From NCBI GenBank assembly GCA_947476295.1, contig CANJQC010000013.1:1-64000 (forward strand): DNA of 64,000 nucleotides. The letters are read 5' to 3'. A program made the position numbers and the translations under genes. Below the pieces are notes generated by a model, which saw nothing but the letters and a program-made list of their open reading frames with translations, searched no databases and had not been told where the DNA came from. Numbering within the stretch: position 1 is the first letter of the stretch; every line of letters starts with the position of its first letter. Shown piece by piece: positions 40,841 to 64,000 of the stretch. This stretch comes from Planctomycetaceae bacterium. Lineage in GTDB: Bacteria; Planctomycetota; Planctomycetia; Planctomycetales; Planctomycetaceae.

Positions 40841-40876
40841 CAGCATCAGCGGCGCGCCGCTCATACAGGCACTGAA

Positions 40877-42148: not shown

Positions 42149-42328
42149 TCGTCATGCAGATTTTGTCATTTCTGACTGTTTCTCGGAACAGGCTGCCTTC
42201 AATGGCAGCCGTGGACATTATGGATTTGCCTGTGCTGAGCACTCGATAAGTGATTTTGGTCCATTGCGCTCGGCCTGCAGGCTGGCTTGTGGCATCGCAG
42301 ACATCAATTATGAACTGGAGGACATTTC

Positions 42329-43651: not shown

Positions 43652-43719
43652 TCGACGCAGCCTGATCACAGGAGCTGCGATGCTGAACATAGTTTTTTGA
43701 CACCTCGGACACTGACGTC

Positions 43720-44583: not shown

Positions 44584-44719
44584 TGCGGCAGAAGACGCAG
44601 TCAGGCTTTTAGCAGACATCAATAGATTTTCGGTCGGACGTGCGTCCATTCATCGATAGAGATTTCAGACCTGACCGCATCGGAATGACCGACGCAGCAG
44701 CGACCGTGGAGCAAATTCT

Positions 44720-46030
44720 ATGTATTACATCTGGTTTCTTACAGCAGCAGGCGTGCTGGCGGTTGGTCTTGCTCTCAAGAAGCTGTTCTTCCCATCCGAG
44801 AAGCGGATGCTCAGCCCGTTTCAGCAGTCACGTCCTGTTCCCGATCTGACCTCTGCGCCGGATCTTGCCATGCGGGAAAAAATGCAGTCAGGAGTTCTGA
44901 AACTGGCAATGACACCCGACGGAGAAATCCTCCCGTTGGCGGGACGTAATTTTGGTCCACCGGCACATGCCTTTCTTCCGCATCGAACTGTCGAACCCGT
45001 GGCATCAGCCTCTGGTGTGGCCATAAACTCCGCCAGAAGTTTCGCAGAGCAGGGCGTAAGCCGAATTTCCACATGGGGCGATCGACGCCTGTTTTCTGAA
45101 TTTCGTGGAATTCTATCTGACGACACCGACCAATTGAATCCGATCGTGCCGGAAGATCTTCCGATGCGGGACGACGAAATGCTGTTCGGACGAATCACAT
45201 CGGCGGTTGCTCAACTGCTTCCCGAGACAGCTTCGCGGCGTGAAGTGCAGAGGAAAAACCTGGTCGGCGCAGGCTATATGTCCCGCGCCTCGTGGATCAA
45301 TCTGACCGCGGTCCGATTCGTGCTGGCTTTTTTTTCAATCGTGATCGTCGGCTATGCGCTGATCATTGCTCCGCCGGCTCTGGAGCCGTGGCTCGTCGCG
45401 CTGTTGGTCATTGCACCGCTGCTGGCATGGTCGATTCCGCCACTGGTCGTGTCCCACAGGGCCTCAGAACGCAAAATCGATATCGAACGCGGTCTGCCCG
45501 ACGTGCTGGACATGATGAACATGGGCGTCAGCCAGGGGCTGACCGTCCCGCAGTCGCTCAAACGCATCAGCCGTGAAATCAGCAGCGTCCATCCGGCTCT
45601 GGCCGCAGAACTGCGACTGGTCAATCAGCAGGCTGAAGTGGGGAGTATGCCTCGAGCTCTCCGTAACTTCAGCCAGCGCGTGGATTCACCGGAAGTGAAT
45701 TCGTTTACATCGTTACTCATTCAGTCAGAAGTCACCGGCACCAGTATTTCGCGATCACTGACAGAATACAGTGACGGAATTCGCAGCTCGTTGAAGGAGC
45801 GTGCGGACTCCCGAGCCAATCTGGCGTCGTTCAAGTTGCTGTTTCCGGTCGCGTTATGCCTTATGCCGTCGGTGTTTCTGTTCCTGCTGGGACCAGCCAT
45901 TGTCCAGTTCTCTGACTTCTACAACAACCAGGCTCAACAGCTTCAGCAAAGTCGCCAGGACGCCATCCGCAGCCTCGACCAAGCCCCGACACTTGACAAC
46001 AGTCGCTTCGCTGGCCAGTTGAATCAGTAA
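44720..46030 (+). CDS. Tad pilus platform protein TadC (T2SS F domain)
   Basis: The 436-residue protein begins with a membrane helix (MYYIWFLTAAGVLAVGLALK) and an extra ~150-residue cytoplasmic segment not found in short TadC proteins. Two helices and the T2SSF domain follow (ERGLPDVLDMMNMGVSQGLT, VNSFTSLLIQSEVTGTSISR), then a final helix, LLFPVALCLMPSVFLFLLG. It pairs with TadB in the platform. It is the last gene of the locus before an inverted-repeat element. Secretin, CpaE and pilin genes are not found here. Confidence 0.9.
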   Translation: MYYIWFLTAAGVLAVGLALKKLFFPSEKRMLSPFQQSRPVPDLTSAPDLAMREKMQSGVLKLAMTPDGEILPLAGRNFGPPAHAFLPHRTVEPVASASGVAINSARSFAEQGVSRISTWGDRRLFSEFRGILSDDTDQLNPIVPEDLPMRDDEMLFGRITSAVAQLLPETASRREVQRKNLVGAGYMSRASWINLTAVRFVLAFFSIVIVGYALIIAPPALEPWLVALLVIAPLLAWSIPPLVVSHRASERKIDIERGLPDVLDMMNMGVSQGLTVPQSLKRISREISSVHPALAAELRLVNQQAEVGSMPRALRNFSQRVDSPEVNSFTSLLIQSEVTGTSISRSLTEYSDGIRSSLKERADSRANLASFKLLFPVALCLMPSVFLFLLGPAIVQFSDFYNNQAQQLQQSRQDAIRSLDQAPTLDNSRFAGQLNQ

Positions 46031-46793: not shown

Positions 46794-47894
46794 CTAGCTT
46801 TTCTTTCTCACCGTCCGGTCGATATTTGTTCCTCCGAGCGGTTCACGATTCCGAGCTCGCATTTCGCGGATCTTTCCGGCGATCTTCCCAAGAATTCGCT
46901 GTGCGCGCTGAGTCCCGTTCAGGGATGCTGCCTGCAGCGCGGTGCCCATGGCTCTCTGTAGCGATACCATGTCCTTGCGAAACTGCTCAAACTCCGCACG
47001 ATACCCCTCCAGCTGGACGCCAGCGGCTCGCGGTTCGATCTTGGTCAGGAACACGTCTTCAAGATGTCTGCGGCCCCCGGCACCGCTGGTCATGCCGATA
47101 TCGAAAGCTTTGATCTCTCGATGGCATTTTGCCTGAAGATCCCGGAGCCAGCGGCGAACATCGGCCCAGTCATCGCGATCTTCGCGATCCGCGGCAAGTC
47201 GTTCGTCCGGCGACAGATCCCGGTCAAGTTTTCCAAGAACTGCCTGCATTGAACCAAGTTTCTGACGCAGGCCCGTCGTTTGACGCTCAATCTGACGGGC
47301 ACCTTTCCACGCCGCTTCGATCCGAAGATACATCATGTCCTCAGTCAAAGGAGCACCGTTGTCTTCGAATTCGGCATCATCCGCGAAGCTCTGGTTCACG
47401 TCGTCCGACAGCAAACCCGGATAGACAGCCTGTCCAGTGAAGGAATTCGCTTCCGCCAGCATGGCGGCTGTTTCTGTTCCGAACACGGTAGTACCAGGTT
47501 GATGCATCGACACAACAGGCATCATCGGCATCATGACCTGTTGTTCGCCCACCGCGATCAAGATTTCTGCCCGACCTCCTGCCGGAACTACGGGGAGCGG
47601 GTGATTCACAAATGGCGCAAAAACTGAAGCCGACTGCCATTCACATCCAAACAACGAGACCCCTTGAAACTGCTGCGGCGGAACACCCGTTGCCGTCAGC
47701 ACGTCACCCAGAGTCATCGGAAATCCGCCAGGACACGCCGTCAATAATTCTGCGGGTATTGAGACGACAACACCCGATGGCAAGTGCGCCGGGCGATACC
47801 ATGCCCAAAGGACAATGCCCTGCAACCGGGCCATTGGAAGTGGCTCCCATTGGCACGACGGCGGTCGCTGAAAAAATAAGACAGGAAAGAGCAT
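46794..47894 (-). CDS. Helical protein of unknown function, last gene of the kinase-SPFH-FHA group
   Basis: From MLFPVLFFQRPP the protein has 366 residues; the frame extends to 48071, but those codons lie in a repeat and look non-coding. The first ~150 residues are beta-rich and hydrophobic (ARLQGIVLWAWYRPAHLPSG, GGRAEILIAVGEQQVMMPMM). The rest is charged and helical (GARQIERQTTGLRQKLGSMQ, DRDLSPDERLAADREDRDDW) with likely coiled coils and a basic C-terminus. No known domain is recognised. Its orientation and closeness to the FHA gene suggest a structural or adaptor role in the same module. Confidence 0.55.
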   Translation of the reverse strand: MLFPVLFFQRPPSCQWEPLPMARLQGIVLWAWYRPAHLPSGVVVSIPAELLTACPGGFPMTLGDVLTATGVPPQQFQGVSLFGCEWQSASVFAPFVNHPLPVVPAGGRAEILIAVGEQQVMMPMMPVVSMHQPGTTVFGTETAAMLAEANSFTGQAVYPGLLSDDVNQSFADDAEFEDNGAPLTEDMMYLRIEAAWKGARQIERQTTGLRQKLGSMQAVLGKLDRDLSPDERLAADREDRDDWADVRRWLRDLQAKCHREIKAFDIGMTSGAGGRRHLEDVFLTKIEPRAAGVQLEGYRAEFEQFRKDMVSLQRAMGTALQAASLNGTQRAQRILGKIAGKIREMRARNREPLGGTNIDRTVRKKS

Positions 47895-47982
47895 TCCACG
47901 GCTCTCGACAAGCTTAAATCCGGGTTTGGTTTTCGAACCGAGAGATCCTGAGGACCGTTCGAGAAATAATTGACCGCATTCT

Positions 47983-48019
47983 CCTCGCCCCTGCGAAGGG
48001 GAGAGGCCAGGGTGAGGGG
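47983..48019. repeat. Dispersed C-rich intergenic repeat
   Basis: The block CCTCGCCCCTGCGAAGGGG then GAGAGGCCAGGGTGAGGGG matches a widely dispersed bacterial intergenic repeat type (CCTCACCCTGGCC...). It sits between the FHA gene and the helical-protein gene. Confidence 0.5.
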
Positions 48020-48246
48020 TAGAAAAGAGACAGTTATGTCTCAAACAGTCCTTGTTCGAGCCTCCACTCATCGTATGGTATGAGTCGGCTGAGTGGACTT
48101 TCTGTTTGTTGTTTTTAACATTTTCTTAAATTGCTGAGTCACCTTTCATGAAGCGATGCCCTGCCGCCTTTGGACGATGTCCGCGGTTGGCCTCCAAAAT
48201 CCCCGAGCTCTCAGACGACCGAGTTGCTGTCACTTCAATGGTCTAC

Positions 48247-49902
48247 TCAATCCAAATACAACTGCGTTGGGCGGTCGAATCGCACGACCTCGGTTCCAAG
48301 CTGGATCTGCATACCGGGACTCAGCGGTGTCAGGGAGCGGGGGCTGAGTGGCTGACTGTCGATGCTGATCGGGCCGCCGCCAGGCAGAGGTTCCAGCCAG
48401 AAGGATCGGTCCATATGAAGCAGTCGGGCTCGACTTTGTGGGCCGCTTTCTTTGAGAACAACTGCCGACTGTGCTGGTGAACCGCCAATCAGCGCTTCCC
48501 GCAGCAGCAGCACGTACGATTCTTCACCTGCCAGATTCTCTGCCCGGTCAAAGCGAATCGCGTTGAGCCGCAGGTCCAGTGCTTCCCGGGCGATCCGTGA
48601 CAATCGCCCACCCACCAACTCGCAATACAGTTCGTCCCAGTATTCGAGTTCGTCACGATCCTCCCTGCGATCAGGAGCCAGCATCAGCATTTCCAGCTTA
48701 AACTGTTTGGGGACAATTCCGGTCACTCCGAGATCAATATGCGTCACATCTCCGGCACGCAGGGTCGGCAAAACATGTCGTTCGCGAACCACCGAATAAT
48801 TCACCTCAATGCCGCTTTGGGAGACATCCTGAATTTCGATACCATCGGGGATCAACTCGACCAGGAAGTGCGTCCGGGAAATGTTGCGGGAATGGTCGTC
48901 ATTCTCCTCGCTGCGTGGAAGGAACCGCAGCACAACGTCGTTATCACGACTGCGTCCGAAAGTGATGCGCGGACGTGTCATTACCAGCGTGCGTCGGCCA
49001 TCATCAAAAAAGAAACCCGCCGCATCCAGATAGGTTCGTTGTGTCAACGTGGACGAGACGGTGGGCAAACGGGATTGCTTTTCTGTGTTGACCTTAAGCT
49101 GGTACTCAAACGTCGTCGTGGGCTTCTCTGGTGTTTTTGTTTCCGTATCACACGGACCTGCGATTCCATTCTGCAGATTGATGACGCTGTCCTGACCGCC
49201 TTTCAGAATGACCTTCGAAAACTGTTTCAGGTTATATCCCTGAAGATTGACCATGGATTGGCCGTCGCCGTCAATCTCCAGCACTCCGCCCTCCTCCGCA
49301 CCGGCATGTGGTACATTGAGGCGGATTCGGCAACGATAAAACCGTGGCAGTTCCGGGGGCACGTCACGAAACGCAAGTTCCACATTAATAAGATACTGTC
49401 CGGGCCTGCAGTCCAGCCCGTCTGATGTCATGCGGAAAGGGACGTGAAATGTCCAAAGTCCGGGCTCATCTTCCTGAGGGCGTCGCAGAGGATCCTGAGG
49501 GTTATGGTCGAGGTCGCGATCGACGCTGATATGCAGTTCCGGCTTTGACGCGTATTTGGGACACAACAAGCTGAATTCCGGACGGACCTGATTTCCCACG
49601 CGGGGAAGTTCGCCCCAGTCCACCAGCAAGCGAGGAGCCACATCCTGGCCGCTGCCGGATGACTGAAGCTCAGCACGGAATCGCGTCAGGACCTCGTCGG
49701 CAACGGTGCCAGGAATACCGGCCGACTCAGCCACCGCCTGGACCTGCGTTTCAATCTCGATCAGCGACGCAGAAGCTCCCAGCTGTGACTTCACGATGTT
49801 GTACAGAATTCCTGCGGGGCCCTGAGTGTCCAAGTTGATCCTCCGAATCTGACAACCACAACTCAACAGTGTGAATGATTCAACAGCGAGAGATTGCGAC
49901 AC
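48247..49902 (-). CDS. FHA-domain protein with a possible second degenerate FHA domain
   Basis: The 551-residue protein contains a clear FHA domain near residues 300-390: ITFGRSRDNDVVLRFLP, then SRNISRTHFLVELIPDG and QDVSQSGIEVNYS, which holds the Arg, Ser-Arg-x-His and Asn features that bind phosphothreonine. The last ~90 residues (LLHMDRSFWLEPLPGGGPIS, SPGMQIQLGTEVVRFD) look like a second, degenerate FHA fold. The first ~290 residues are beta-rich and unassigned. The start codon is GTG. It is downstream of the SPFH gene and the giant kinase, so it probably reads phosphorylation made by that kinase. Confidence 0.8.
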   Translation of the reverse strand: MSQSLAVESFTLLSCGCQIRRINLDTQGPAGILYNIVKSQLGASASLIEIETQVQAVAESAGIPGTVADEVLTRFRAELQSSGSGQDVAPRLLVDWGELPRVGNQVRPEFSLLCPKYASKPELHISVDRDLDHNPQDPLRRPQEDEPGLWTFHVPFRMTSDGLDCRPGQYLINVELAFRDVPPELPRFYRCRIRLNVPHAGAEEGGVLEIDGDGQSMVNLQGYNLKQFSKVILKGGQDSVINLQNGIAGPCDTETKTPEKPTTTFEYQLKVNTEKQSRLPTVSSTLTQRTYLDAAGFFFDDGRRTLVMTRPRITFGRSRDNDVVLRFLPRSEENDDHSRNISRTHFLVELIPDGIEIQDVSQSGIEVNYSVVRERHVLPTLRAGDVTHIDLGVTGIVPKQFKLEMLMLAPDRREDRDELEYWDELYCELVGGRLSRIAREALDLRLNAIRFDRAENLAGEESYVLLLREALIGGSPAQSAVVLKESGPQSRARLLHMDRSFWLEPLPGGGPISIDSQPLSPRSLTPLSPGMQIQLGTEVVRFDRPTQLYLD

Positions 49903-50024
49903 ATCTTAGTGTCCTACCCTTTAAAATGAATGCGATGTATGCACATGTTCGCGAGCGACCAACGGAAGCGGACCACAATCTTCCGAGCGGTAGCTCGAAT
50001 CGGGTCAAGGGCGTTCCGCCCTTG

Positions 50025-52118
50025 CTATGCCGGTGGACGACCAGGAGGGCCTCCATTGAAAAAGGCCGTCAACTGTGGCACCTGACCCGCCTGTACCCAA
50101 CTCGGCAGCCCCGTCTTCCAGACCATTGTTGCTGCATTCACTTGCCCGTTCTGAATGTACTGCTGGACCTGAGCGATCTGCAGTGGGGGCGATTGTTGGC
50201 CATTCAGCGAAACATGCCACGTTTCAGAGACTGGCATCGGAGGAAGAGTACCCCACGGCTGGGCAGCCATCGGTGGCGGAAATGCCCCTGCTATCGGTGC
50301 CGGAGGTGTGGCGGCGTGAGACAGTCCGCCGATCATCTGATTGACGCTGGAATGCTGAGCCTGCATGGCCATCTTGTAGGCCTCAGCGATCGCATCGGCC
50401 TTGGTCCGCTCCGTCTCGTTCATCCGTTCATACATCCGTAGTCGCTCTTCATTCAACTGAGCCGTGGGGTTGGCCGTTGCCTGAACCTTGGCGGCTTCCT
50501 GGGACGCTTCATGCTTTTTGAGATCCGCCAGCAACGCCGCGTTCTGTGTTCCGGCCGTCGCGATCAGGGCTTCGGTGCTCAGGCTGCTCATCACCTGAAT
50601 GCGATCTAGTTCTCGCTTACTGGCACCGTCGGCCTTCAAGTTCTCCATCTCCGTCTGCATGCGATGCTGGCGTTCCGCAAACTGTGCGTTCATCTCCTGG
50701 ACTCGCTGCAAACGATCCAGCTGACTGCCGGACTGTTTCTGTTTGAATTCCAGATCCCATTCCTGCTGACGCTTCTGCATCTCCAGTTTGTCGCTCTGAA
50801 GGCGAGAATTCAGCTCCGACTGCATCAGCACGATGCGCGTCTTGCGTTCGGCCCGAGTCAGCTCCAGATCACCCCGCACGTCTTCCAGCTTTTGTTCATG
50901 CAGGACCGCCTCCCACTTATCGTCCCGTGATTGTCGGCGAACTTCGCGAGCCCGTTCAATGGCGGCTTTGACGCTACCCAGCTTCTGCTCACGCCGGTGA
51001 GTGGCTTCGTCTTTTTCCCGCTGAATTTCATGCTGCCATTTCTCGTTGTCCTGGTTCCGCGACAGGCGGGACAGTTCCAGTTCCTTTTCCAGAGACCGCA
51101 TTTGAACGGCATAATCCAGATCGACGCGCAGTTCGCCCAGTTCCTGTTCACGCTGGATATCAATTGTTGCCAGCAGATGTTCACGCAATTGCTGGCGATC
51201 GCCCTTTCGTTCTTCGTAAGCGGTGATCAGCGATTCGCGTTCTTCCTTTCGCAGCAGCTTCCCTTTGTCGATCTCCGCGATGGAGTTCGCAAAGTTTTCA
51301 GCAGTCTGAATCTTGTTCAGCTGATCGGAAGTCACCGCATCTCGCAGAGCCTTCCTGACAGGCACCTTGCTGCGGATGTCATCGAGCTTTGCCGACAGCT
51401 GTTCGCTTTCGACCTGCGTGGCCGCGCGCAGCAGTTGAGTTTCCCGAGTCTGCAGCCACAGTTCACCTGTGCGTTCGGCAATGCCGCCATCGTCGCAGCC
51501 AAAGTTCGCCGTCTGCAGATCAATAAACAAGAGTCCATAGCGCTGAATCTTGAGGCCTGCTGTTTCCTGAAGCTGTTGGGCCAACTTGTCCACGAAGTCG
51601 GGCTTTCGGACTTCGTCAAAACTGGTTCGGCCAATTGCACTGTACAGTGCCTGACTCATCAATGGTGTCAGAAGTTGTTCGAGTTCCTGCAGTGTGAGTA
51701 CATCACGGGCGCCCATCAGATTGTGCATGAACGACACGATGTCGCTGACCTGAATCGTCCAGCGGTAAGACACATCAAATGAGACATTATCCAGACACGG
51801 AACACCGCCCAGGTAACTTTCGATCGGCACCTCTTCGCAGCGAGTCAGGAAGATTGTGGTCTGCTTGTTCCGGCAGAACTGCAGGCGTTCGACGAACGAT
51901 TCCATGGTGTACGAACCAGCGGGAACCTCCCCGACCAGTACACCTTCATCGATCACCAGAGCCCGCGTGCCCGGCTCAATCACCAGCGAGCGTCCCTTGG
52001 TAACACCGCCAATCAGAGGCAGGTTGCCGAAGAACCCTTTCAGGTCAGGAACCATGATGCGAACGGCAAAGTCCGAGTCTGAAACGGACCAGCGATCATG
52101 TTGCAAATTGACGGCCAT
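50025..52118 (-). CDS. SPFH/band-7-like protein with C-terminal GYF_2 domain
   Basis: The protein (697 residues from MAVNLQHDRW) has an N-terminal SPFH-like domain (SLVIEPGTRALVIDEGVLVG to LLFIDLQTANFG, about 40-215). A long charged coiled coil follows (about 230-560, e.g. EKELELSRLSRNQDNEKWQH), then a Gln/Pro/Ala-rich part and a terminal GYF_2-type domain (WHVSLNGQQSPPLQIAQVQQ, ATMVWKTGLPSWVQAGQVP). SPFH proteins form large oligomers and scaffold membrane domains; bacterial YdjI-type members act without a classic membrane helix. GGAG 6 nt upstream supports the start at 52118 over 52124. It follows the kinase gene by about 100 bp. Confidence 0.8.
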   Translation of the reverse strand: MAVNLQHDRWSVSDSDFAVRIMVPDLKGFFGNLPLIGGVTKGRSLVIEPGTRALVIDEGVLVGEVPAGSYTMESFVERLQFCRNKQTTIFLTRCEEVPIESYLGGVPCLDNVSFDVSYRWTIQVSDIVSFMHNLMGARDVLTLQELEQLLTPLMSQALYSAIGRTSFDEVRKPDFVDKLAQQLQETAGLKIQRYGLLFIDLQTANFGCDDGGIAERTGELWLQTRETQLLRAATQVESEQLSAKLDDIRSKVPVRKALRDAVTSDQLNKIQTAENFANSIAEIDKGKLLRKEERESLITAYEERKGDRQQLREHLLATIDIQREQELGELRVDLDYAVQMRSLEKELELSRLSRNQDNEKWQHEIQREKDEATHRREQKLGSVKAAIERAREVRRQSRDDKWEAVLHEQKLEDVRGDLELTRAERKTRIVLMQSELNSRLQSDKLEMQKRQQEWDLEFKQKQSGSQLDRLQRVQEMNAQFAERQHRMQTEMENLKADGASKRELDRIQVMSSLSTEALIATAGTQNAALLADLKKHEASQEAAKVQATANPTAQLNEERLRMYERMNETERTKADAIAEAYKMAMQAQHSSVNQMIGGLSHAATPPAPIAGAFPPPMAAQPWGTLPPMPVSETWHVSLNGQQSPPLQIAQVQQYIQNGQVNAATMVWKTGLPSWVQAGQVPQLTAFFNGGPPGRPPA

Positions 52119-52226
52119 AAACATCTCCGCGTTTCATCTGTTCTTGAAATTGACTCAGTAGTGATTGGACGAGGCGGCTGTTACACCAGTCCCTTGCCGG
52201 AAGACAGTTGGGCATATTCAGACAGT

Positions 52227-55200
52227 TCAATTCAGAATCCACCGCTCTACGAGGACACGAAAACCGATGTCGTCACGTCGGTCACCGACGGACGGCTTAG
52301 TACCCGCGGAAATGCATTGGTCTGAACCGCCTCGAATACTACCGCCTCGAACCGGGCCGTCAGAGGTCCATTCCCACACATTTCCATAAACATCAAACAA
52401 ACCCCAGGGATTACTTTGCTTCAAGCCCACTTCATGCGTTGTCTTCAGCGACGAATTTTGGCCATACCAACCGAATGAAGTCAGGCCTGCCGCGTTGTCA
52501 CCAAAGAAATATGTTGACGCGGTTCCGGCACGCACGGAGTATTCCCATTCCTCGCTGGTTGGCAGTCGATAAATACACCCTGCAGTCTGCTCTGCCGGCA
52601 GTGCAGTGAGTTTCTTGCAGAATGCACGGGCATCTTCACGCTTCACCAATTCAACGGGAAACCGTCCTCCAGGATTCTCGGACGGGTTGTCACCCATCAC
52701 CTGTTGGTATGCGGACTGCGTCGTTTCGTAAGATTCGAGGTAGACTGGCTGGCGTTGAGTACGCCATCGCGCGGCCGATTGCTCGTCTGCTGGTGGAATC
52801 AGCGAGAACTTCATCCCCAAAGAGTTTGAGTACTCAATCGGTACGCCAAGATGATCAGCCCACGCCTGTTGGTGGGCCTTGGCTTGTCCTGCATCGAACG
52901 GGGCGATGGCCGCCGGTGGAGCCTGTCCGGACTTCGGTGATGCCGCGTTTTCAGCCTTGGCCACCGGCGCAGAAGGGGAACTCAGAACCACGCGGAAGCC
53001 GAAGTAGCTGAGGCGGGTTGTGGGGGCAAACGGGATACGGGAAGCCAGCCGACAATGCGGTGCGGCGTTGTTCCAACAGCCGCCACGGTACACGCGGTCC
53101 GATCCTACTTTATCTTCACACCACTCCCACACATTCCCGTGCAAGTCGTACAGCCCCCAGCAGTTCGGCAGTTTCTCACCCACAGCATGCGTTGTACTAC
53201 GGCTGTTATCAACAAACCACGCATACTCACCGAGGTCCTTTGCGTCATCTCCAAAACTGTACGCAGTTGTTGTTCCCGCACGACAAGCGTATTCCCACTC
53301 GGCTTCCGTGGGCAGACGGTAGACTCTTCCCGCGGCTTTTTCCGCAGGCAAATCAGACAGCTTGTGACAGAACGCAACGGCGTCATCCCAGCTAATCGTC
53401 TCAACAGGGTTGTTCGCACCTTTGAAAGAGCTTGGGTTACTGCCCATCACCGACTCATACTGCGACTGCGTGACCTCATGTACGCCGATCGAATAAGACG
53501 CCGCGAGTATCACGCTGTGTTGCGTTTCATCAAGTCCTCCCTGCGATTGCCTGCCGGGTTCAGCGGCCGGGCTGCCCATCGTGTACTCTCCAGCCGGAAT
53601 AACGACCAGCTTCATACCGATGCTATTCGTTGTTTCTACCGATACGCCAAGATGATCGGCCCATGCTTTCTGGTGCGCTTTGGCTTGAGTGGTGTCAAAC
53701 GGTGCAACGGCAGGTGGAGGAGCTTGATTTGTTCGCTCGTTAGTGAGCAACGGATTGACCCAGACAGATGTCACCCGATTTTCATCGACTCCGCCTGAAA
53801 TATGCACCTGCAGTGTCAGAAGGCTCACGTGTGAGACATCAACGCTCACGGGAAAGGAAGAGGTACGGTCTCGTGTCTTCGGAGAACTCCATAGTAGTTC
53901 TCCATCGCCGAGGACTTTGAAAACCACGTCGCTGTTGAGTGGAGGATCGCCTGATTCTTCGCGACTGCTGAATGCCGCAACGGTGCTAAAGCGAGAGAAC
54001 TGTCTTCCGAGCAGCCAACTGGCATCTGCCGGGTGCCCCTGGTCCGGCTGGCATGCGTGCATCGAGATACAATGCAAAGGTGTTTTCCCTTGAACGATCA
54101 CTGCCGATGACTCTTTTGCGATTCCAGTTTTTATTTTGACGCTCTGGTCTCCGTATCCATTAACTCCGTGTTTGCCCAGTGTAAACGATCGTCTCACTCG
54201 ATACTGGACTTCCTGCAGGTCATCGAGATAAACCCGATTTTGTGATTGCGGAACCGCGTAATACAGCTTTGGATCAAGCCACATAGTCGTCATGTCATTG
54301 GTCACGCCGACCGGGTCCACAAACAACATAAGTTGCGTAGCACCACTAATATCCAGGTCAACGTCAAACACATCATTCTTCGATGAAGCTACTGGCGATT
54401 CCCACAACTGTTTTCCGCCGTGGGGAACATTGTCGCTTAGTTGTTCATCGTTCCAAGCCGCGAACACTCGGAAGCTCGTCTTATCACGCAGCCGAAGATC
54501 CGCCGGACCGCCGTTGAAGCACGCTTTCGCAGTGAATCGCGTAAACTGTCCGCCCAGATTAAAGACGGCTACTGAGCCGAAGGGCTTCGGAGCGTGCGCA
54601 TGCATCGACACGGCATGTTCAACAGGCTTTCCATTAAACGTGACCCGATTTCCGGGTGAGTAACCGGATTCACCACGCAGTCCAACGGTGAATCCTCGCA
54701 GGCATCGGGATCGTCCTAATGGCAGGTCGTCGAGGAATGCGGTGCCGAGTTGTGCCCGCGGTGATTCGTACTCATACAGGGTCTTCACTTCAGTCGGGGA
54801 CAGTGCGCGTTTGTAGAGGCGAATGTCGTCCAGGAAGCCTTTAACCCAGCCTCCGTTTTCCGCTTGGCCGATCGTGAGCGGCGCTTTATTTGAAGCGTCA
54901 AGACTGGCAGGACAGTCGCCCTCAGAGGCTAAGGTTCCATCGATATAAATCGAGCATCGACCGCCAGTTTTTGTGACCACATATTGATGCCATGCAGGGT
55001 CACTGAAGTCGAATTTGACAGGAGCACAAAACATGGGCTCAGGGGTTGAACTGCCGGGACGATGAATAAGAAAATTCAGATCATTTTCTGTAGGTGAACC
55101 GACATTAAGAATCCACTTTGTCCCCTGTCCCTTCTGAACGGTGTCCGTTTCATCTTTGCCAAGAATATGAATGGGTGCAGATGCGTTGGTGACTGACGCC

Positions 55201-58200
55201 CAGATGCTGATCGAAAAATCTCCGGGTGATAAATTCAACGCTGGGTCATGCGGTACGGCGATAAAGTCATCATTGCCATCAAACGCATAGGATGCGCTGG
55301 ACTTGCCATGGCGATCGTTGCTCAGACTCGCTCCCTTGACATCTCCATTATGTCCATTCCCGCTCTCATCTTTGGCGTCGCCATTGAACGGGTAATACGC
55401 TACAAGGCCTGCCGAGAGCGATGCTGAGGGTGCGTTACCAATTTGAGAAATGGCCACGTTAGGTCTCGGAATGTCACACACGACGCGAAAGCCCAAATTG
55501 TGCCCCCGATGTCGCGATATAGTAGACCCTCGGTATGCAGACCGGCAGTCCAATGGTCGATTGAAGCAACATCCAGCGCGGTAAACCCGGCCTTTTGATT
55601 CTGATGCGCCGGATGGGTCAATGGCTCTGTTTGACGGGTAACTTCCATATTTGTCTTCACACCATTCACACACATTTCCGTGCATGTCGTACAATCCCCA
55701 TCCATTGGGTTTCTTCAGGCCCACATTGCGAGTGCGAACATCGTTTGCGGAGATCCTTTTTTCAAAGTTTGCCCCATCGGTTTTGAAGATTGCCCCACTG
55801 TCAATGATCTTGTCGCCTGAATTATCAGCAGACCAGGCATATTCACCGAGTTGTAATGGTTCATCCCCAAAACTATACGCAGAACTCGTACCAGCCCGGC
55901 ACGCATACTCCCACTCTGCTTCAGTCGGTAAACGATAAACACGGCCGGCTGTTCGCTCCGCTGGTAAAGCCGAGAGTTTCGCCACGAACGCAACGGCGTC
56001 GTCCCAGGTGACTTGCTCCACGGGGTTATCCGCTCCCTTAAATTTACTCGGATTACTACCCATTACCTGCTCGTACTGGTGCTGCGTGACCTCGTGCATA
56101 CCCATCTGAAATGACTGTGTCAGGGTCACCTTGTGCAGTGTTTCATCTGGATTTCGCCCCGGCTCAGTTTCCGGACTTCCCATCATGAACTCGCTAGGTG
56201 GAACCACGACGAGCTTCATACCGATGAAATTTGTGGATTCAACCGGCAAGCCCAAGTAGTCGGCCCATGTTTTTTGATGCACCTTGGCTTGTGTTGCCTC
56301 GAATGGGGCAATGGCAGGTGCAGGGGCAGCCTGCGCCATCGCAGATTCCGCGTTCCTGTCAGTCGATATGAGTGATGATTTCTTCTTCCCAAACCCGCGA
56401 CGAAACAGCCGTAAAGCAGCGCCGGTTTCAAGTTCGTCGCGAACAACAACCAGGTCAACGAAAGCCCAAACGTGAGTACCGTGGTTTTTGACATTTGCAG
56501 CAGACGAGCGTGGTAGTTTTTCCGCCAACTGTCCCTTCTGCAAAAGATTCAAGACCCGGATCTCACCCTCCACCACGCCAGGCTCAGAAACTCGCGTCGT
56601 GAGGAAGAGAAACCCGTCGGACACAGAATGCGATGTACCAGCATACTCAGTTCTATTAAGAAGTGTCTCATAGGCTCCGTCACTGCGGCGCGAAAATACC
56701 ACCAGCACCTGTTCTTTCCCTTCGACTGTAGGAATCAGCGCCGCGAGATAGCCTGCACTGGCGAACAGGGGGCTACCCTGAATGGCCGCTCCGGGCAGTT
56801 CAATCTTCTGAATCTCCTTACGAGTGACAACCTGCCCGCCAATAGCATACTCCGCAAGGTACGCAGCACCGTCTTTGTCGCGTTCAAGACAGGCCACGAC
56901 ATTATCTTGAACGGCAGCCGGCCACTGGATGGCGTAAGGAAACTCAAGAGTTCCCACATGCGACGCCTTCCCAGCCTCGTCAAACTGCATGATGTCTGTG
57001 GCTATGTTTGGTCCCGAGCCATGTCCGATAAAAAAAAGTGCCATTGTTTTATTCAGGGCCACAATTTGGCTCCCAAAATACAAACCGTTGTTGGGTCCGC
57101 GTCCTCCGCGATCGCTGCCCGGATCATAAAACCGGTGAATCTCCTTTGGGGTTTCAGATCCAATATCTGAGTAGACAAATCCCGTACCGTCGTGCGGAGC
57201 ACGTGTCGTGGTTTTATGCTCACCAATCAACAAAAGTTGATCTAAAAATGCCATCCCATATCCGAATGATCGAGCACCAAGTGAACGCACAGGGGCGTTA
57301 ATTCTTACGGGCTGACGATCCAAGTGATCAAGGTCAACGATCAGCACCGCGCCGCTTTCTCCGGATTCCTCATACAAAGCCAGAAGTGACCCACTTCGGT
57401 CAATTGTTGCACCAATCGGCAGCCCTTCGCCAATCGTTGCAAAGAGTTCAAAAGACTCGAAGAACCGTTCCGGCAACCGTTGCTTTATGCCTTCGGGGAC
57501 TGTCTTTAGCTGTTCCAAAAATGCTGTGCTGAAATTTATGCTGCTGCTGGCGACGGTCTGCAGAGCTTCCAGAGTTGCTTCCGGCGACTGTGACTGAAGC
57601 CCGTTCAAATACTGCGGCTCAAGCAGTGACAACAACTTGGTGATCGCCTGTTGCTTCTTTTCCGTATCGGCAGCTGTAATTGCGTCAGCACTTACCAGAG
57701 TTGATGCCGACGCTTTCAAATCACCATCAGTGATCTGTTTCTGACACAACTCATAGTATTGCCCCGCAAGATCATTCCATAATCGTGTTTGTTCCTCAGG
57801 CTGAGTGCCCAGAGTTGTGAGTGACTCAATCATCAGAGCCACTCGGTCGGTTTCCTTCGCCTGCAATCCTTTGTCCGCTTCGGTAACAAGTACTTTGCTG
57901 AGCCTCTCCCTGAGCGGCTTGAGTGTCACCGATTGAGGGTCAATTTCTGAGACGGTCTCCAGCGCCGCCGTCGCTTCCTGAAGTGCAGCATCGCTGAAAG
58001 ATGCTTCACATCGCTGTACCAACCCATCCGCCAGTGACGCGGCTAGGGCTCCAAGTCCGTCGGCACTTGAATTCAGGTTTTTGGCCGCCAGAAAGTCGGC
58101 ACTCGCCTTGTCCCGATCGCCCGCCTGCAGGGCTTGCTGGGCTCGGATAACCAGTGCCGCGGCCTGCAGCTCTGAAATTCGTGGCAAATTCGGCTGAATC

Positions 58201-61200
58201 GCCCGTGCCGCCTCAATGTCGGCCAACGCCGGTTCTACCTCAGACTGCTGCACCGAGGCGTCCGCCCGATCGAGAAATGCTTCAGCGATCATCTGACTGA
58301 CGCGAGGCAACTGGTCCGACTGAGGACTGATTGTGCGTGCTTCCATCAGTTCCTTGAATGCTGCTTCCGGGGTCTTTGCCACAACCGCCGCTTCGGCAAG
58401 TGTCAGGTAGGCGGAACTCACCGCTGATTTTGCAGAGGCGATATCCTCAGCCGGTGCAGCCAGTTCCGCTGCTTCCCCGATATCCTGCAGTGCTTCCGTT
58501 ACTGAACCGGCATTCGCTCGCTCAATTGCACGCTGCACATGTGCCAACCGGAGAGCCTGCTGAGTCTTCTCTCCGTCAGGTGACAACGCTACGCATTTCT
58601 CCAGATCGCCAAATGCGCCGGTGACATCCGGTGGAGTTTCCTGAAGCTTTGCCAGCGCCAATCCGGCCCAGGCGTCAGCGACCGTGTCGTCCAGACGAAC
58701 GACCTCGCTGTAGGCTTCGATCGCTGCTTCGAAATCCGCCGCCTGCAGTGCATCGTCGCCACGTTGCTGAGCGTCCGCGATGGCCGTCAGACGCTGTTGC
58801 CGGAGCATGATAAGTCCCGCAACTGCTACCAGGAGCAACAGACTCACCACACTGCTGATGAGGATCCGTTTCTTCTGCCGCTGCCGCCGCCGTATTGCAA
58901 CAAGCTCCGCCTGCTGTAATTCTTCGAGCCGCTGGCGACACTCTTTCATGGCGGACTCGAACGCTGTGTCGGCGATGATGGCCGAGGTGAGCATGCCCCG
59001 ATATTCGTCTGCGAGTGCCAGTGCCTGTTCGATCTGCCGCTGATCATGTGCCTGCGTCAGGCCTTCAATGGTCTCCGATCGCTGGTCCGCAAAGAACTGC
59101 AGATCTTCAACGGCTGTCATGATTGCATCGTTCTGCAGCTCATCGGGTACACGCCGCAAAAGCTCCAGTGCTTCGTCGAATCGGACTTCTTTGCGAAGTT
59201 GCTGCACTTTCTGCAGCAGCGCCTTGATCTGCGACTTCTGCTTTTGATCTCGATTCAGCAGTTGCCCCCGCAGTTGACTGTCTGCAACGGTCACTTCACT
59301 CTTGAGTGACAGGAGTTCATCCAGCTTTGCCAGCAATCCCTGCAGTTGATTATTCTTTACACCCTGATCGATGCTCTTCTGCAGATTCTGAACCCGTGAC
59401 AGCTTTGAAGCAGCATCTTTTTGCAGCGTCTCAATGTCGGGCGTTCGCAGTTTGCCATCCAGTCGCTGAAGTACGGCCACACATTCGGCGTATTTGCGAG
59501 CATCCAATAGCTGCTGGGCTTCTGCCTTTGCCGTATTTTTGGCGGCCAGCCGCTGCTGTTCCCGTTGCTCCAGCGTATCTCGCAGTTCCCGGAGATCCAC
59601 TCGATCGGGAAGCAGCTGAAGCAACTCGTGTACGCGTGGCATCAACCCATCCAGTTGACGCCGTTCAACACAGACACGAATTTCCTCGTCCAGGTCTTTG
59701 GATCGTTGCTCCTGAGTCTGTAGGTTTTTCAGTAAAGCATTGATATCTGCCGACCGGAGACCCGCTGGGATCTGCTCAAGAGCATGAATGGCAGACGCGT
59801 AGTCATAAGCCTGTTGATGAGCTCTGGCTTCCTTGTGAAGGACTCCGGCTCGTTCCTGCTGTTGCCGTTGTTCTCGTTTGCTGCCTTCGGAAAAATCAAC
59901 CGCCCATTTTTTCAAATGCTGAAAACGTGGATCGTCCTCGCGGTGTATCTCCGCAGCAATCTGTTCCGCCTCACGAAACTGTCCTTCCCGAACGAATTGT
60001 TCCGCCTGCTCCTGACGTTGCTGCATCTGTTCTTTTCGAGCAGTGATCAGCGGCGACTGTTTGGTTCCGCAACTGCCACAGACCTCATCCCAGACAGGCA
60101 TTCCCTTGCTGCAGGACAGGCAATTCATTTCCAGTGAAACGGCACATTTTCGGCAGAACTTTCGCGAAAGCTCGTTCTTTGTGCCGCAGGATGGACACTG
60201 CCCTTCACTAAGGTGGGTCAGAGTTGTCTGGCCTTCGTTCAATGCTTCGCGAAGCGCATTGCGAAACTCAACCACTGAGGAATATCGATCTGCGGGCTTA
60301 TCCTCCAACGCTCTACCCAACGCTGACTGCAGAGACGTGGGTACCTCATTCAAGCGGATCACTTTCGGACTCTTGCCAGTCACCATCTGATACAGCGTGG
60401 CCGCCAGACTCCACAGGTCACTGCGAGCATCGGCCTGCGTTGCGTCCCGCCGCTGTTCCGGTGGCATGAAGTCCAGTGTGCCCAGCACTGCCCCGGACAT
60501 CGTGTGACCGGTGTCTCCGGTCTCAACGCGAGCCAAGCCAAAATCTGTCAGCTTTGGGACACCGTCTTTCGTCAGCAGCACGTTGGCTGGCTTGAGATCC
60601 CGGTGGACGATGCCCAATTCATGGGCTCGACTCAGTCCGTCGCAGAGATAACATGTCAGGGTGATCGCTTCTTCCAGCGGCATCGCTCCCTGCTGGCAGC
60701 GATCCAGCAGGCTTTTCCCCTCTACATATTCCAGAATCAGAAATGGACCGTTCTTGTCTCGACCATAGTCATACACTTGCACGATGTTCGGATGGTTCAG
60801 AGCGGCAATCGACTGAGCTTCCGTCATGAACCGTCGGACGGCTGTCTGGTTTTTCGCCATGTCGCCCAGCACACGCTTGATGGCGACTTTGCGTTTCAGG
60901 CGATTATCAGTCGCCAGTTGCACTTCCCCCATGCCACCTTTGCCCAGCACGCCTTCGATGGTGTAGCGGGCTGACAGATCGACAATCTCCATGTCGTCAT
61001 CGACCACGGCATCATCAACGCTGCGTCTCCCGCCAAACGTGGCCTCATCACCCAGACTTTCCGGGGCGGTATTCTTCTTTGCTGGCCCGGTAAATGTGTT
61101 TTCAGCACCAAGGCTGACTTCTGGACGTTTTGGCGACTCGGCAGGAGTTGCAGGAGTGGCGGCAGCAGGAGCGGCGGAATTACGGTCAGGGGGCGTCGGT

Positions 61201-61352
61201 GGCTTTACGCTGACCATTTCTTCGGTGATCGCTACCACCGTCTGACATTTTGGACAACGAATCTTTTTGCCAACCGCCGTCGCAGGCACCGCCAGCTTTG
61301 CCTTGCAGGACGGGCATACCGCGATCACTTTGTCCGGCTGGCTCATCAGCAT
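52227..61352 (-). CDS. Giant Ser/Thr kinase with zinc ribbons, TM helix, LamG, two NPCBM and three FGE-type domains
   Basis: In the 3041-residue protein the order is: zinc ribbon (CPSCKAKLAVPATAVGKKI, CPKC); PknB-type kinase (about 127-370) with GKGGMGEVQLA, catalytic HRDLKPANVL, DFGLA and MPPEQR; a second ribbon with several CxxC (385-440); helical repeats; one membrane helix (ISSVVSLLLLVAVAGLIML, about 830-850); extracytoplasmic TPR-like helices; a beta-rich region (about 1350-1690) of propeller type; an FGE/sulfatase-modifying-like domain (1702-1957); LamG (1984-2192); two NPCBM domains (2200-2364, 2372-2535); and two more FGE-type domains (2567-2784, 2834-3037). It is exceptionally long. 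An alternative start is two codons in. It is the first gene of the minus-strand module. Confidence 0.85.
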   Translation of the reverse strand: MLMSQPDKVIAVCPSCKAKLAVPATAVGKKIRCPKCQTVVAITEEMVSVKPPTPPDRNSAAPAAATPATPAESPKRPEVSLGAENTFTGPAKKNTAPESLGDEATFGGRRSVDDAVVDDDMEIVDLSARYTIEGVLGKGGMGEVQLATDNRLKRKVAIKRVLGDMAKNQTAVRRFMTEAQSIAALNHPNIVQVYDYGRDKNGPFLILEYVEGKSLLDRCQQGAMPLEEAITLTCYLCDGLSRAHELGIVHRDLKPANVLLTKDGVPKLTDFGLARVETGDTGHTMSGAVLGTLDFMPPEQRRDATQADARSDLWSLAATLYQMVTGKSPKVIRLNEVPTSLQSALGRALEDKPADRYSSVVEFRNALREALNEGQTTLTHLSEGQCPSCGTKNELSRKFCRKCAVSLEMNCLSCSKGMPVWDEVCGSCGTKQSPLITARKEQMQQRQEQAEQFVREGQFREAEQIAAEIHREDDPRFQHLKKWAVDFSEGSKREQRQQQERAGVLHKEARAHQQAYDYASAIHALEQIPAGLRSADINALLKNLQTQEQRSKDLDEEIRVCVERRQLDGLMPRVHELLQLLPDRVDLRELRDTLEQREQQRLAAKNTAKAEAQQLLDARKYAECVAVLQRLDGKLRTPDIETLQKDAASKLSRVQNLQKSIDQGVKNNQLQGLLAKLDELLSLKSEVTVADSQLRGQLLNRDQKQKSQIKALLQKVQQLRKEVRFDEALELLRRVPDELQNDAIMTAVEDLQFFADQRSETIEGLTQAHDQRQIEQALALADEYRGMLTSAIIADTAFESAMKECRQRLEELQQAELVAIRRRQRQKKRILISSVVSLLLLVAVAGLIMLRQQRLTAIADAQQRGDDALQAADFEAAIEAYSEVVRLDDTVADAWAGLALAKLQETPPDVTGAFGDLEKCVALSPDGEKTQQALRLAHVQRAIERANAGSVTEALQDIGEAAELAAPAEDIASAKSAVSSAYLTLAEAAVVAKTPEAAFKELMEARTISPQSDQLPRVSQMIAEAFLDRADASVQQSEVEPALADIEAARAIQPNLPRISELQAAALVIRAQQALQAGDRDKASADFLAAKNLNSSADGLGALAASLADGLVQRCEASFSDAALQEATAALETVSEIDPQSVTLKPLRERLSKVLVTEADKGLQAKETDRVALMIESLTTLGTQPEEQTRLWNDLAGQYYELCQKQITDGDLKASASTLVSADAITAADTEKKQQAITKLLSLLEPQYLNGLQSQSPEATLEALQTVASSSINFSTAFLEQLKTVPEGIKQRLPERFFESFELFATIGEGLPIGATIDRSGSLLALYEESGESGAVLIVDLDHLDRQPVRINAPVRSLGARSFGYGMAFLDQLLLIGEHKTTTRAPHDGTGFVYSDIGSETPKEIHRFYDPGSDRGGRGPNNGLYFGSQIVALNKTMALFFIGHGSGPNIATDIMQFDEAGKASHVGTLEFPYAIQWPAAVQDNVVACLERDKDGAAYLAEYAIGGQVVTRKEIQKIELPGAAIQGSPLFASAGYLAALIPTVEGKEQVLVVFSRRSDGAYETLLNRTEYAGTSHSVSDGFLFLTTRVSEPGVVEGEIRVLNLLQKGQLAEKLPRSSAANVKNHGTHVWAFVDLVVVRDELETGAALRLFRRGFGKKKSSLISTDRNAESAMAQAAPAPAIAPFEATQAKVHQKTWADYLGLPVESTNFIGMKLVVVPPSEFMMGSPETEPGRNPDETLHKVTLTQSFQMGMHEVTQHQYEQVMGSNPSKFKGADNPVEQVTWDDAVAFVAKLSALPAERTAGRVYRLPTEAEWEYACRAGTSSAYSFGDEPLQLGEYAWSADNSGDKIIDSGAIFKTDGANFEKRISANDVRTRNVGLKKPNGWGLYDMHGNVCEWCEDKYGSYPSNRAIDPSGASESKGRVYRAGCCFNRPLDCRSAYRGSTISRHRGHNLGFRVVCDIPRPNVAISQIGNAPSASLSAGLVAYYPFNGDAKDESGNGHNGDVKGASLSNDRHGKSSASYAFDGNDDFIAVPHDPALNLSPGDFSISIWASVTNASAPIHILGKDETDTVQKGQGTKWILNVGSPTENDLNFLIHRPGSSTPEPMFCAPVKFDFSDPAWHQYVVTKTGGRCSIYIDGTLASEGDCPASLDASNKAPLTIGQAENGGWVKGFLDDIRLYKRALSPTEVKTLYEYESPRAQLGTAFLDDLPLGRSRCLRGFTVGLRGESGYSPGNRVTFNGKPVEHAVSMHAHAPKPFGSVAVFNLGGQFTRFTAKACFNGGPADLRLRDKTSFRVFAAWNDEQLSDNVPHGGKQLWESPVASSKNDVFDVDLDISGATQLMLFVDPVGVTNDMTTMWLDPKLYYAVPQSQNRVYLDDLQEVQYRVRRSFTLGKHGVNGYGDQSVKIKTGIAKESSAVIVQGKTPLHCISMHACQPDQGHPADASWLLGRQFSRFSTVAAFSSREESGDPPLNSDVVFKVLGDGELLWSSPKTRDRTSSFPVSVDVSHVSLLTLQVHISGGVDENRVTSVWVNPLLTNERTNQAPPPAVAPFDTTQAKAHQKAWADHLGVSVETTNSIGMKLVVIPAGEYTMGSPAAEPGRQSQGGLDETQHSVILAASYSIGVHEVTQSQYESVMGSNPSSFKGANNPVETISWDDAVAFCHKLSDLPAEKAAGRVYRLPTEAEWEYACRAGTTTAYSFGDDAKDLGEYAWFVDNSRSTTHAVGEKLPNCWGLYDLHGNVWEWCEDKVGSDRVYRGGCWNNAAPHCRLASRIPFAPTTRLSYFGFRVVLSSPSAPVAKAENAASPKSGQAPPAAIAPFDAGQAKAHQQAWADHLGVPIEYSNSLGMKFSLIPPADEQSAARWRTQRQPVYLESYETTQSAYQQVMGDNPSENPGGRFPVELVKREDARAFCKKLTALPAEQTAGCIYRLPTSEEWEYSVRAGTASTYFFGDNAAGLTSFGWYGQNSSLKTTHEVGLKQSNPWGLFDVYGNVWEWTSDGPVRGGSIRGGSDQCISAGTKPSVGDRRDDIGFRVLVERWILN

Positions 61353-62061: not shown

Positions 62062-64000
62062 TCACCGCGTCCTGAAGGCTATCCCGATTTCCAGTTCGGC
62101 GGCCAGGCTGTGAAACAGTGATTCCCTGGTTGACGCCCAAGTGGACCGCTTGATGGCCGCACCATCACTCAGAGGTCCCAGTCCAATTTCGCGCAGGCGG
62201 CTATTGCTTCGAATCAAAGCGGCCAGTGCTGACGGATTCTCGTAACCAAGTTCAACAGCCACTTCTTCAATTTCAAGATCTTTCTGATAATACCTCGCTG
62301 AAGTTCCAATGGGCTCCTCAGTGAAGTCCAGCATTGTTTTGTCTGCGTCTTCACCGACTTTCAGAAAGATTCCACACGCCTTGTCCAGTGCAGCAATGTA
62401 CCGTGACCTGTCGTGATCGATGATTTCATCCATCTCTGCCACAGTGGGAAAGAGACTCTCAACCTTCAGTCGCACGTCGCCAAAAGGCACGGCACGGCTA
62501 TCACGAACGGTATCTTTGAGGCGAACCATGCCGTGCTGGTGGCACGCCATGCAGGAAATCGCGTTGACGACGGCGGGTGTACCGGATGTCTCTTTGTTGT
62601 CTCGCACGACCTCGACAGGCCCTTCAGAAATGCGTTGCCCTGCAGCCGTCGCAAGAAAGTACGCCTGCAGGCCATTTGGAAGACTAAAAATCATCTCACC
62701 GCCGTCTGCTTCGAACGCGTATTCGTGATACTGATTTTCCACGAAGCGTGGCCCGAGTGGATACTTGAAAAGGTTGCCGCGGTCTTCGCTCTTTCCAAAG
62801 TCATAGCTCTTCCAGTAATAATCATCCGTGCCAAATGCATGGCGATCGACCAGCCGATTACTGCGCGACACCCCACTCTCGGAAAATCCAGCCCTGCGAA
62901 GACGATTCTCCATAAAATCATGCTCTGTATTGACTCCCAGCATTTTCTCAAGCTCGGAGACGTGCTGCGGGAGATTAAGGATTGCGTAATACAGCTCGCC
63001 GCGCGGCATGGTATCGAGAAACCAATCCCCACGAATGATCGGCAATTGCGAACGGACCAGACCGTAAACATCAGCGGCAACGTGGCGAAGATCTTCATTC
63101 GAACTGACCGTAAGGTCGAGGCCGTATGGGTACGCGGTCTGAATTCTTTGCCAGACCTGTGGTTCACCCCAGCCAAGTTTCCGCAGGTCGATGCGAAGAA
63201 TCAACTGATTACTGTCGATCGGTGTCGGCACGAAAATATCCGGCTGCCAACTCAGACTGTTGAGAAGTTTGGAAAATGCGGCTCGAGCCAGGCGGATGTT
63301 CTTCTCCGCGTAGTTCGTATTGTTGCGGCCAACGCGACCAGCAAATGAATTGTTGTGCAGATTCGTAAAGCTGAAATAACGGACGTAGGGGCGATCAGTC
63401 TGCGAAAGCCGAAGAACATCAGCAAGGACGGCTTTCCAGACGTCGGCGTCGGTGATAAATGGTCGAGCGGCCTCAGAAGGAAAAGGTGCCGCACCCTCTT
63501 CAATCCAACGACTGATCGTGGCGATTTCTTCGGCCGTGGCGGCCTCGGCTCCTTCGGGCGGCATATCCCTCTCAACGCCGATGCGTTTCCACAGGATTGA
63601 ATCATCCACATTATGAGCAATGACGTACCCAGCATTCTCGTTGATTAACGTGTCGTGTTTCAGAACGTTAAGACCCTCGGCAACCATCTTGACAGAGTGA
63701 CACTGTGAACATCGCTTTTCCAGGACCGCGTAGGCCTTACCAGATAGCTCGGTTGCCTCTGTCACAGTTTCAGGCGCTATGACCTTAGCGGAAACCTCAG
63801 CCGTATCGGACGCAACTGCAGTCTCCGCAAGCGCGGACGCCGCGGGAGCTGCAATCGTCACAGACTCAGAGTCAGACTCAGTTGCAGAGTCAGACTCAGT
63901 TGCAGACTCAAACCTCGGTTCAGTTGCATTTGCGTTTGCACCCGCAATGGCTGGCTCGCTGCTGGCCGAGATTTCGCCCAAAGGGCGCAAGGTCGTCGCA
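62062..64000 (-). CDS. Planctomycete cytochrome-like protein with two CxxCH sites (N-terminus outside window)
   Basis: The minus strand holds a long open frame that continues beyond the right edge; TTG at 63990 is not a likely start. An Ala/Glu/Ser-rich linker with an 18-bp repeat precedes a PSCyt-like domain with KRCSQCHSVKMVAEGLNVLK and MPPEGAEAATAEEIATISRW. Next comes a middle domain (RPYVRYFSFTNLHNNSFAGR), then a second heme site, CMACHQHGMVRLKD, and a C-terminal helical part. Two CxxCH motifs predict a c-type, probably diheme, periplasmic protein. Such proteins are common in planctomycetes and their redox partners are unknown. Confidence 0.8.
   Translation of the reverse strand, partial: ATTLRPLGEISASSEPAIAGANANATEPRFESATESDSATESDSESVTIAAPAASALAETAVASDTAEVSAKVIAPETVTEATELSGKAYAVLEKRCSQCHSVKMVAEGLNVLKHDTLINENAGYVIAHNVDDSILWKRIGVERDMPPEGAEAATAEEIATISRWIEEGAAPFPSEAARPFITDADVWKAVLADVLRLSQTDRPYVRYFSFTNLHNNSFAGRVGRNNTNYAEKNIRLARAAFSKLLNSLSWQPDIFVPTPIDSNQLILRIDLRKLGWGEPQVWQRIQTAYPYGLDLTVSSNEDLRHVAADVYGLVRSQLPIIRGDWFLDTMPRGELYYAILNLPQHVSELEKMLGVNTEHDFMENRLRRAGFSESGVSRSNRLVDRHAFGTDDYYWKSYDFGKSEDRGNLFKYPLGPRFVENQYHEYAFEADGGEMIFSLPNGLQAYFLATAAGQRISEGPVEVVRDNKETSGTPAVVNAISCMACHQHGMVRLKDTVRDSRAVPFGDVRLKVESLFPTVAEMDEIIDHDRSRYIAALDKACGIFLKVGEDADKTMLDFTEEPIGTSARYYQKDLEIEEVAVELGYENPSALAALIRSNSRLREIGLGPLSDGAAIKRSTWASTRESLFHSLAAELEIGIAFRTR
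63868..63903. repeat. 18-bp coding tandem repeat
   Basis: AGAGTCAGACTCAGTTGC occurs at 63868-63885 and 63886-63903, with a partial third copy. It encodes repeated Glu/Ser/Asp residues (TESDSA) in the linker before the cytochrome domain and could vary in copy number without a frameshift. Confidence 0.85.

Follow-up and report, generated by a model that had tools for sequence, protein, structure and literature searches.

The receptor kinase, SPFH and FHA genes described here form a real conserved module of known parts, in a combination that is apparently undescribed. They lie next to one another on the minus strand of the window, the whole stretch of 64,000 nucleotides of planctomycete DNA that was analysed. 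The first-pass annotation had proposed a signalling module of four consecutive minus-strand genes without known precedent. Four such open reading frames were present, with the claimed domains found by Pfam and NCBIfam and the helical protein P1 belonging to no family. Their coordinates were confirmed except for the start of P1, which probably lies at 47894, the Met at which its homologs begin, and not at 48071. As to precedent, no account of an SPFH-FHA-kinase module was found in the literature searched, which took in few subscription papers, and the combination was not described in the accessible portions of the conflict-systems literature that name both SPFH and GYF. The four genes were assigned as follows.

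52227-61352, minus strand: receptor kinase P4, 3041 aa (Pfam and NCBIfam domains, active-site motifs, dedicated clade)
50025-52124, minus strand: SPFH-coiled coil-GYF_2 protein P3, 699 aa (Pfam; Foldseek)
48247-49902, minus strand: FHA protein P2, 551 aa (Pfam; ortholog starts)
46794-47894, minus strand: helical protein P1, a bystander outside the module (homolog distribution, homolog starts)

Linkage and distribution of the genes

SPFH relatives came from public genomes and from a set of 170 genomes within the order, and the genes around them were inspected. In 15/15 close loci with sufficient contig, the FHA gene was the next gene after SPFH, in the same orientation, and a kinase of the dedicated clade adjoined these two genes in 11 of the 12 informative loci, these being hand counts that include close relatives (such as L004, L005, and L007) and are not all independent. 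The SPFH-then-FHA order held over SPFH identities ranging from 87% to about 30 to 36%, while the kinase could lie upstream, downstream, on both sides, or divergent. The one exception, L047, showed no kinase within the 3.6 kb available past FHA; L045 was left out of the kinase count because only an FGE-bearing C terminus was visible before the contig end. Among distant loci, SPFH, FHA, and kinase genes occurred together in L048 and L050, with a Zn ribbon replacing GYF_2 and SPFH preceded by an additional helical gene, and the arrangement was looser in L049, L051, and L052.

Across the 170 genomes of the order, full-length SPFH orthologs (E < 1e-50) were detected in 10 and the kinase clade (E < 1e-75) in 9, with 8 genomes common to both (Fisher p 2.7e-11); genome G023 carried clade kinases without an SPFH match. 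A close copy of the module was present in 2 of 18 same-genus genomes, the window's own included. In an even sample of 392 genomes of the phylum, the FHA profile identified only one further genome, a distant one, in which an SPFH gene was on the same contig too. The module therefore has a rare and patchy occurrence, consistent with gain and loss or with transfer. Plasmid spread was considered and rejected, P2 having no plasmid match.

The proposed conservation of gene order was thus observed for SPFH, FHA, and clade kinase, which are neighbours in nearly every checkable locus, but not for P1, whose homologs are common in the order (82/170 genomes) and located elsewhere, in varying neighbourhoods. 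No module SPFH or FHA gene stood beside a P1 homolog in the nine loci read, and in the same-genus genome G132 the P1 homolog and the module were on different contigs. P1 was accordingly dropped as a fourth member. It gave no significant Pfam match and represents an unnamed family found in about half of the order's genomes. No relation was detectable between P1 and the helical gene that precedes SPFH in distant loci (L048 6272-7708, L049 5638-6819, L050 11614-12633), one of which was weakly like CATRA-C (E 0.018, under the cut-off). A PSCyt1-type gene at 62062-63999 was also rejected as a member, being absent from the module-bearing G132 and matched in module-free genomes; a similar gene comes after FHA in L045.

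Several other neighbouring genes were recorded. Plus-strand genes of Tad/Flp pilus type (RcpC/CpaB, T2SSE, and two T2SSF) adjoin the module at 39839-46030 of the window, and very large open reading frames without a Pfam match occupy 27412-33966 and 34043-37477 (2184 and 1144 aa). In Pirellula loci, a conserved gene of ∼267 aa without a Pfam match lies between FHA and kinase (L004 13746-14549, L005 4191-4994, L007 2506-3543) and holds the sequence RHATAH, which by eye only resembles the R-X4-H motif of HEPN nucleases. Five short repeated related open reading frames are found downstream of the module kinase in L006 (17228-19520).

Domains of the SPFH, FHA and kinase proteins

The following domains were identified in P3 and P2.

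51513-51983, minus strand: SPFH/Band_7 domain of P3 (PF01145, 1.5e-7, above the cut-off; Foldseek)
50070-50219, minus strand: GYF_2 domain of P3 (PF14237, 2.8e-14; Foldseek match to the GltJ GYF domain, 7z3c)
48766-48966, minus strand: FHA domain of P2 (PF00498, 6.8e-9; Arg317 and Ser342 invariant in the core family)

P3 falls within the SPFH/Band 7 superfamily by its SPFH domain, and the confident part of its structure model gave Foldseek matches to the SPFH domains of stomatin, prohibitin, flotillin, and HflK/C. A long coiled coil connects this domain to GYF_2. No transmembrane segment was evident in P3, so attachment to the membrane is predicted from the superfamily. Most core SPFH proteins have a Pro-rich tail (PPGPPP-like) after GYF_2, such as that at window 50028-50069, a possible self-ligand for the GYF domain.

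P2 has the features expected of a phosphothreonine reader, an FHA domain with the Arg and Ser that contact phosphothreonine. The usual Asn varies. In a 14-row core alignment of the FHA proteins, Gly316, Arg317, Ser342, and His345 were invariant and the canonical Asn, at about position 363, was not conserved. P2 scored 13.5 bits against TIGR03354 (cut-off 120) and is not a member of the TagH/Fha family. Its start may lie ∼25 to 30 codons further in, judging by ortholog starts, and its AlphaFold model (pLDDT 47) was too poor to interpret. A second FHA-like domain, suspected by eye at the C terminus, was unsupported by profile comparison.

In P4, the annotated features were as follows.

61236-61322, minus strand: N-terminal zinc ribbon, residues 11-39 (PF13717, E 6.8e-4, under the Pfam cut-off)
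61095-61115, minus strand: tail motif copy 1, SLGAENT, residues 80-86 (Thr86), candidate FHA docking site (motif analysis)
61038-61058, minus strand: tail motif copy 2, SLGDEAT, residues 99-105 (Thr105), candidate FHA docking site (motif analysis)
60366-60965, minus strand: protein kinase domain, catalytic residues intact (PF00069, 1.9e-43; VAIK/HRD/DFG)
60066-60197, minus strand: double zinc ribbon, residues 386-429 (PF12773, 1.1e-8)
58803-58865, minus strand: single transmembrane helix, about residues 830-850 (hydropathy 2.84; sequence)
55479-56216, minus strand: FGE/SUMF1 (C-type-lectin fold) domain 1 (PF03781; one catalytic Cys position replaced)
54783-55280, minus strand: laminin-G-like domain, Laminin_G_3 (PF13385, 3.7e-20)
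53745-54107, minus strand: NPCBM domain, best of two (PF08305, 1.5e-19)
52968-53585, minus strand: FGE/SUMF1 domain 2, bounds approximate (nearest solved relative, Treponema variable protein 1)
52230-52805, minus strand: FGE/SUMF1 domain 3, bounds approximate (PF03781, three stretches)

The protein thus runs from zinc ribbon, kinase domain, and double zinc ribbon through the membrane helix and a TPR-like region to a C-terminal array of three FGE-sulfatase domains, Laminin_G_3, and two NPCBM domains. With the Lys, HRD, and DFG of active Ser/Thr kinases all in place, the kinase is active-looking by its motifs. That P4 spans the membrane, as had been claimed, was borne out by hydropathy in the form of a single hydrophobic helix at ∼830 to 850, which is predicted to place the C-terminal two thirds of the protein across the membrane. 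An intact catalytic Cys pair, as in formylglycine-generating enzymes, was not found in the three FGE domains; where human FGE has its first catalytic Cys, domains 1 to 3 have Asn, Asn, and Gly (domains 1 and 3 aligned by eye), and they are therefore unlikely to be such enzymes. Treponema variable protein 1 is a diversified ligand binder of the C-type-lectin fold, and the FGE domains of P4 are probably lectin-like ligand binders.

No transmembrane helix was detectable by hydropathy in several sister kinases, some of these open reading frames being cut by contig ends, so the compartment of the sensor may differ between copies. Where two kinases came from one locus or genome, their kinase domains were 77 to 87% identical, with the downstream regions 34 to 66% identical or not alignable. 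Judged by these sequences, the paralogs appear to combine a conserved output with diverging sensors, a pattern that fits repeated duplication with sensor exchange or divergence on a conserved kinase. A diversity-generating retroelement target was considered and rejected: the three RVT_1 matches in the genome were all on other contigs, and the two that were read looked retron-like and unlike such a retroelement.

In a kinase-domain tree, the kinases of the module formed one clade to the exclusion of all other sampled kinases of the same genome. The short N-terminal tails of the clade kinases carry one to three copies of a motif, SLGDxxT[F/L], represented in P4 by SLGAENTFTG at residues 80-89 and SLGDEATFGG at 99-108. 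The pattern SLxxxxT occurred in 19/21 clade kinase tails versus 0/35 other kinases, and in 35 copies in the clade tails versus a shuffled mean of 0.67, with the caveats that the tails, being homologous, are not fully independent and that the pattern was picked after they were seen. The clade kinases lacking it were L049 and L096, the tail of the latter appearing broken. Asp at motif position +3, which the search pattern did not require, was conserved at 88% in the proximal copy, with flanks mostly at 20 to 40%. The proximal copy lies ∼17 to 29 residues ahead of the kinase domain and the distal copy mostly 37 to 57. A whole-genome DNA scan for LGDxxTF gave 8 matches (one being the P4 tail motif) versus 4 for a reversed-pattern control, and hence no indication that many other proteins bear the motif. 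These properties make the SLGDxxT threonines candidate docking sites for the FHA protein, although the motif could serve another role, in kinase autoregulation or with another partner.

A proposed phospho-relay and its alternatives

The conserved module has a kinase clade of its own, a motif in the kinase tails, intact residues in the kinase and FHA domains, and diverging sensors; its best explanation is a three-protein phospho-relay, to which a probability of about 0.55 is given. In the relay as we infer it, from ligand through motif phosphorylation, FHA binding, and SPFH clustering to output, the C-terminal sensor of P4 (FGE/lectin-like, laminin-G, and NPCBM domains, across the membrane in this copy) would bind an envelope or external ligand and so activate the cytoplasmic kinase. 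The kinase would then phosphorylate the SLGDxxT threonines in its own N-terminal tail, and the FHA protein would bind the resulting phosphothreonines. By oligomerising, the SPFH-coiled coil-GYF_2 protein would bring the kinases and the FHA protein together in a cluster that probably lies beneath the membrane, with one SPFH-FHA hub common to several kinases with different sensors. The motif in the kinase tails lends weight to the logic first suggested, in which the kinase would phosphorylate, the FHA protein read, and the SPFH protein gather.

Two alternatives were each judged unlikely. The SLGDxxT tails may dock elsewhere, with the FHA protein reading phosphorylated sites in the SPFH coiled coil or in targets outside the module. 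Sequence preference varies among FHA domains, and the Asn position of this one is atypical, both of which would accommodate such a reading; against it, no copies of S[LV][GSD]xxxT were found in the SPFH and FHA proteins, and the motif is limited to the clade of kinases that travel with this FHA protein.

Equally improbable is a reversal of roles, in which sensing falls to the hub and the kinases act as effectors: membrane damage would be detected by SPFH-FHA, which would recruit and activate the kinases to modify cellular targets, with toxicity or dormancy as in kinase-based phage defence. The SPFH-Zn-ribbon protein YdjL of B. subtilis does partner PspA in envelope stress (PMC11237479), and phage-defence kinase profiles match the P4 kinase domain. 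Some loci are also flanked by AbiGi, CHAT, or recombinase genes: L006 has an AbiGi-domain gene between kinase and SPFH, the distant locus L052 a CHAT gene, and the L043 copy a serine recombinase immediately upstream as well as a tyrosine integrase several kilobases off. These neighbours are hints of a conflict function. However, the kinase C termini resemble ligand binders and diversify, the PADLOC anti-phage models left P2 and P3 unmatched and met P4 mostly through generic kinase similarity, and no recognised defence genes were seen among the window genes scanned. Conflict signalling is a possible, weakly supported purpose of the module. By far the least probable reading is that common descent or a mobile island holds the three genes together without joint function, as the patchy distribution, the integrase and recombinase near L043, and a genome with ∼47 kinase loci and 21 FHA domains might allow, for the linkage survives where the proteins are 35 to 50% identical and the kinases lie upstream of, downstream of, or divergent from the hub, and the kinase clade is nearly confined to hub-bearing genomes.

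Planctomycetes have many receptor-like kinases with few known partners, and a conserved tail motif with a dedicated FHA reader would provide a defined, testable link from receptor to scaffold. An SPFH hub serving a number of diverging receptors would be a bacterial counterpart of membrane signalling platforms. A more tentative extension, doubtful at present, is a bacterial receptor signalosome in which rapidly diversifying receptor kinases plug into the SPFH-FHA hub via a phosphorylated SLGDxxT tail code for self/non-self or phage sensing.

Comparison with known systems

Planctomycete single-span kinases with periplasmic SUMF1, TPR, or WD40 domains have been surveyed (PMC11032199), and their architecture is like that of P4. 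The accessible part of that survey describes kinases and no conserved SPFH-FHA partnership or tail motif, and P4 belongs to a small separate clade. The NTPase-centred and FGS/NPCBM conflict systems (PMC7159879, PMC8195603) have FGS, NPCBM, FHA, kinase, and GYF parts and a sporadic distribution in common with the module. In contrast to those systems, no MoxR/vWA, STAND, or GTPase core was found in the core loci scanned, nor the NTPase/vWA core of the ternary conflict system (VMAP, MoxR-vWA); an AAA ATPase adjoins only the L044 and G470 copies. The KKP phage-defence module (PMC11341870) likewise has two kinases with a common kinase domain and divergent C termini, and involves FHA, but there the FHA domain is fused to the kinase, a phosphatase is present, and SPFH is lacking.

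The SPFH-Zn-ribbon proteins of the PspA-linked ydjFGHL system (PMC11237479) pair SPFH with a small C-terminal domain, as here, and the distant relatives L048 to L052 end in a Zn ribbon. The core family, however, ends in GYF_2 and has an FHA protein and kinases as partners instead of PspA/TPM.

In the threonine phosphorylation pathway of the T6SS, the PpkA kinase acts with Fha and PppA under periplasmic input by TagR or RtkS (PMC6082577, PMC3953482). A membrane Ser/Thr kinase with periplasmic input, autophosphorylation, and a foci-forming FHA scaffold are all described there (PMC6082577, PMC3953482), and a transmembrane Ser/Thr kinase and an FHA protein were both found in the module. No T6SS core or PP2C phosphatase genes were found among the window genes or neighbours scanned, and no phosphatase of any kind was seen among the neighbours. 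TagR may itself be FGE-like. The T6SS pathway is the closest working analogy, but the module does not belong to it: an SPFH protein stands in place of the T6SS core, the sensor is fused to the kinase, and the candidate docking motif is on the kinase tail itself.
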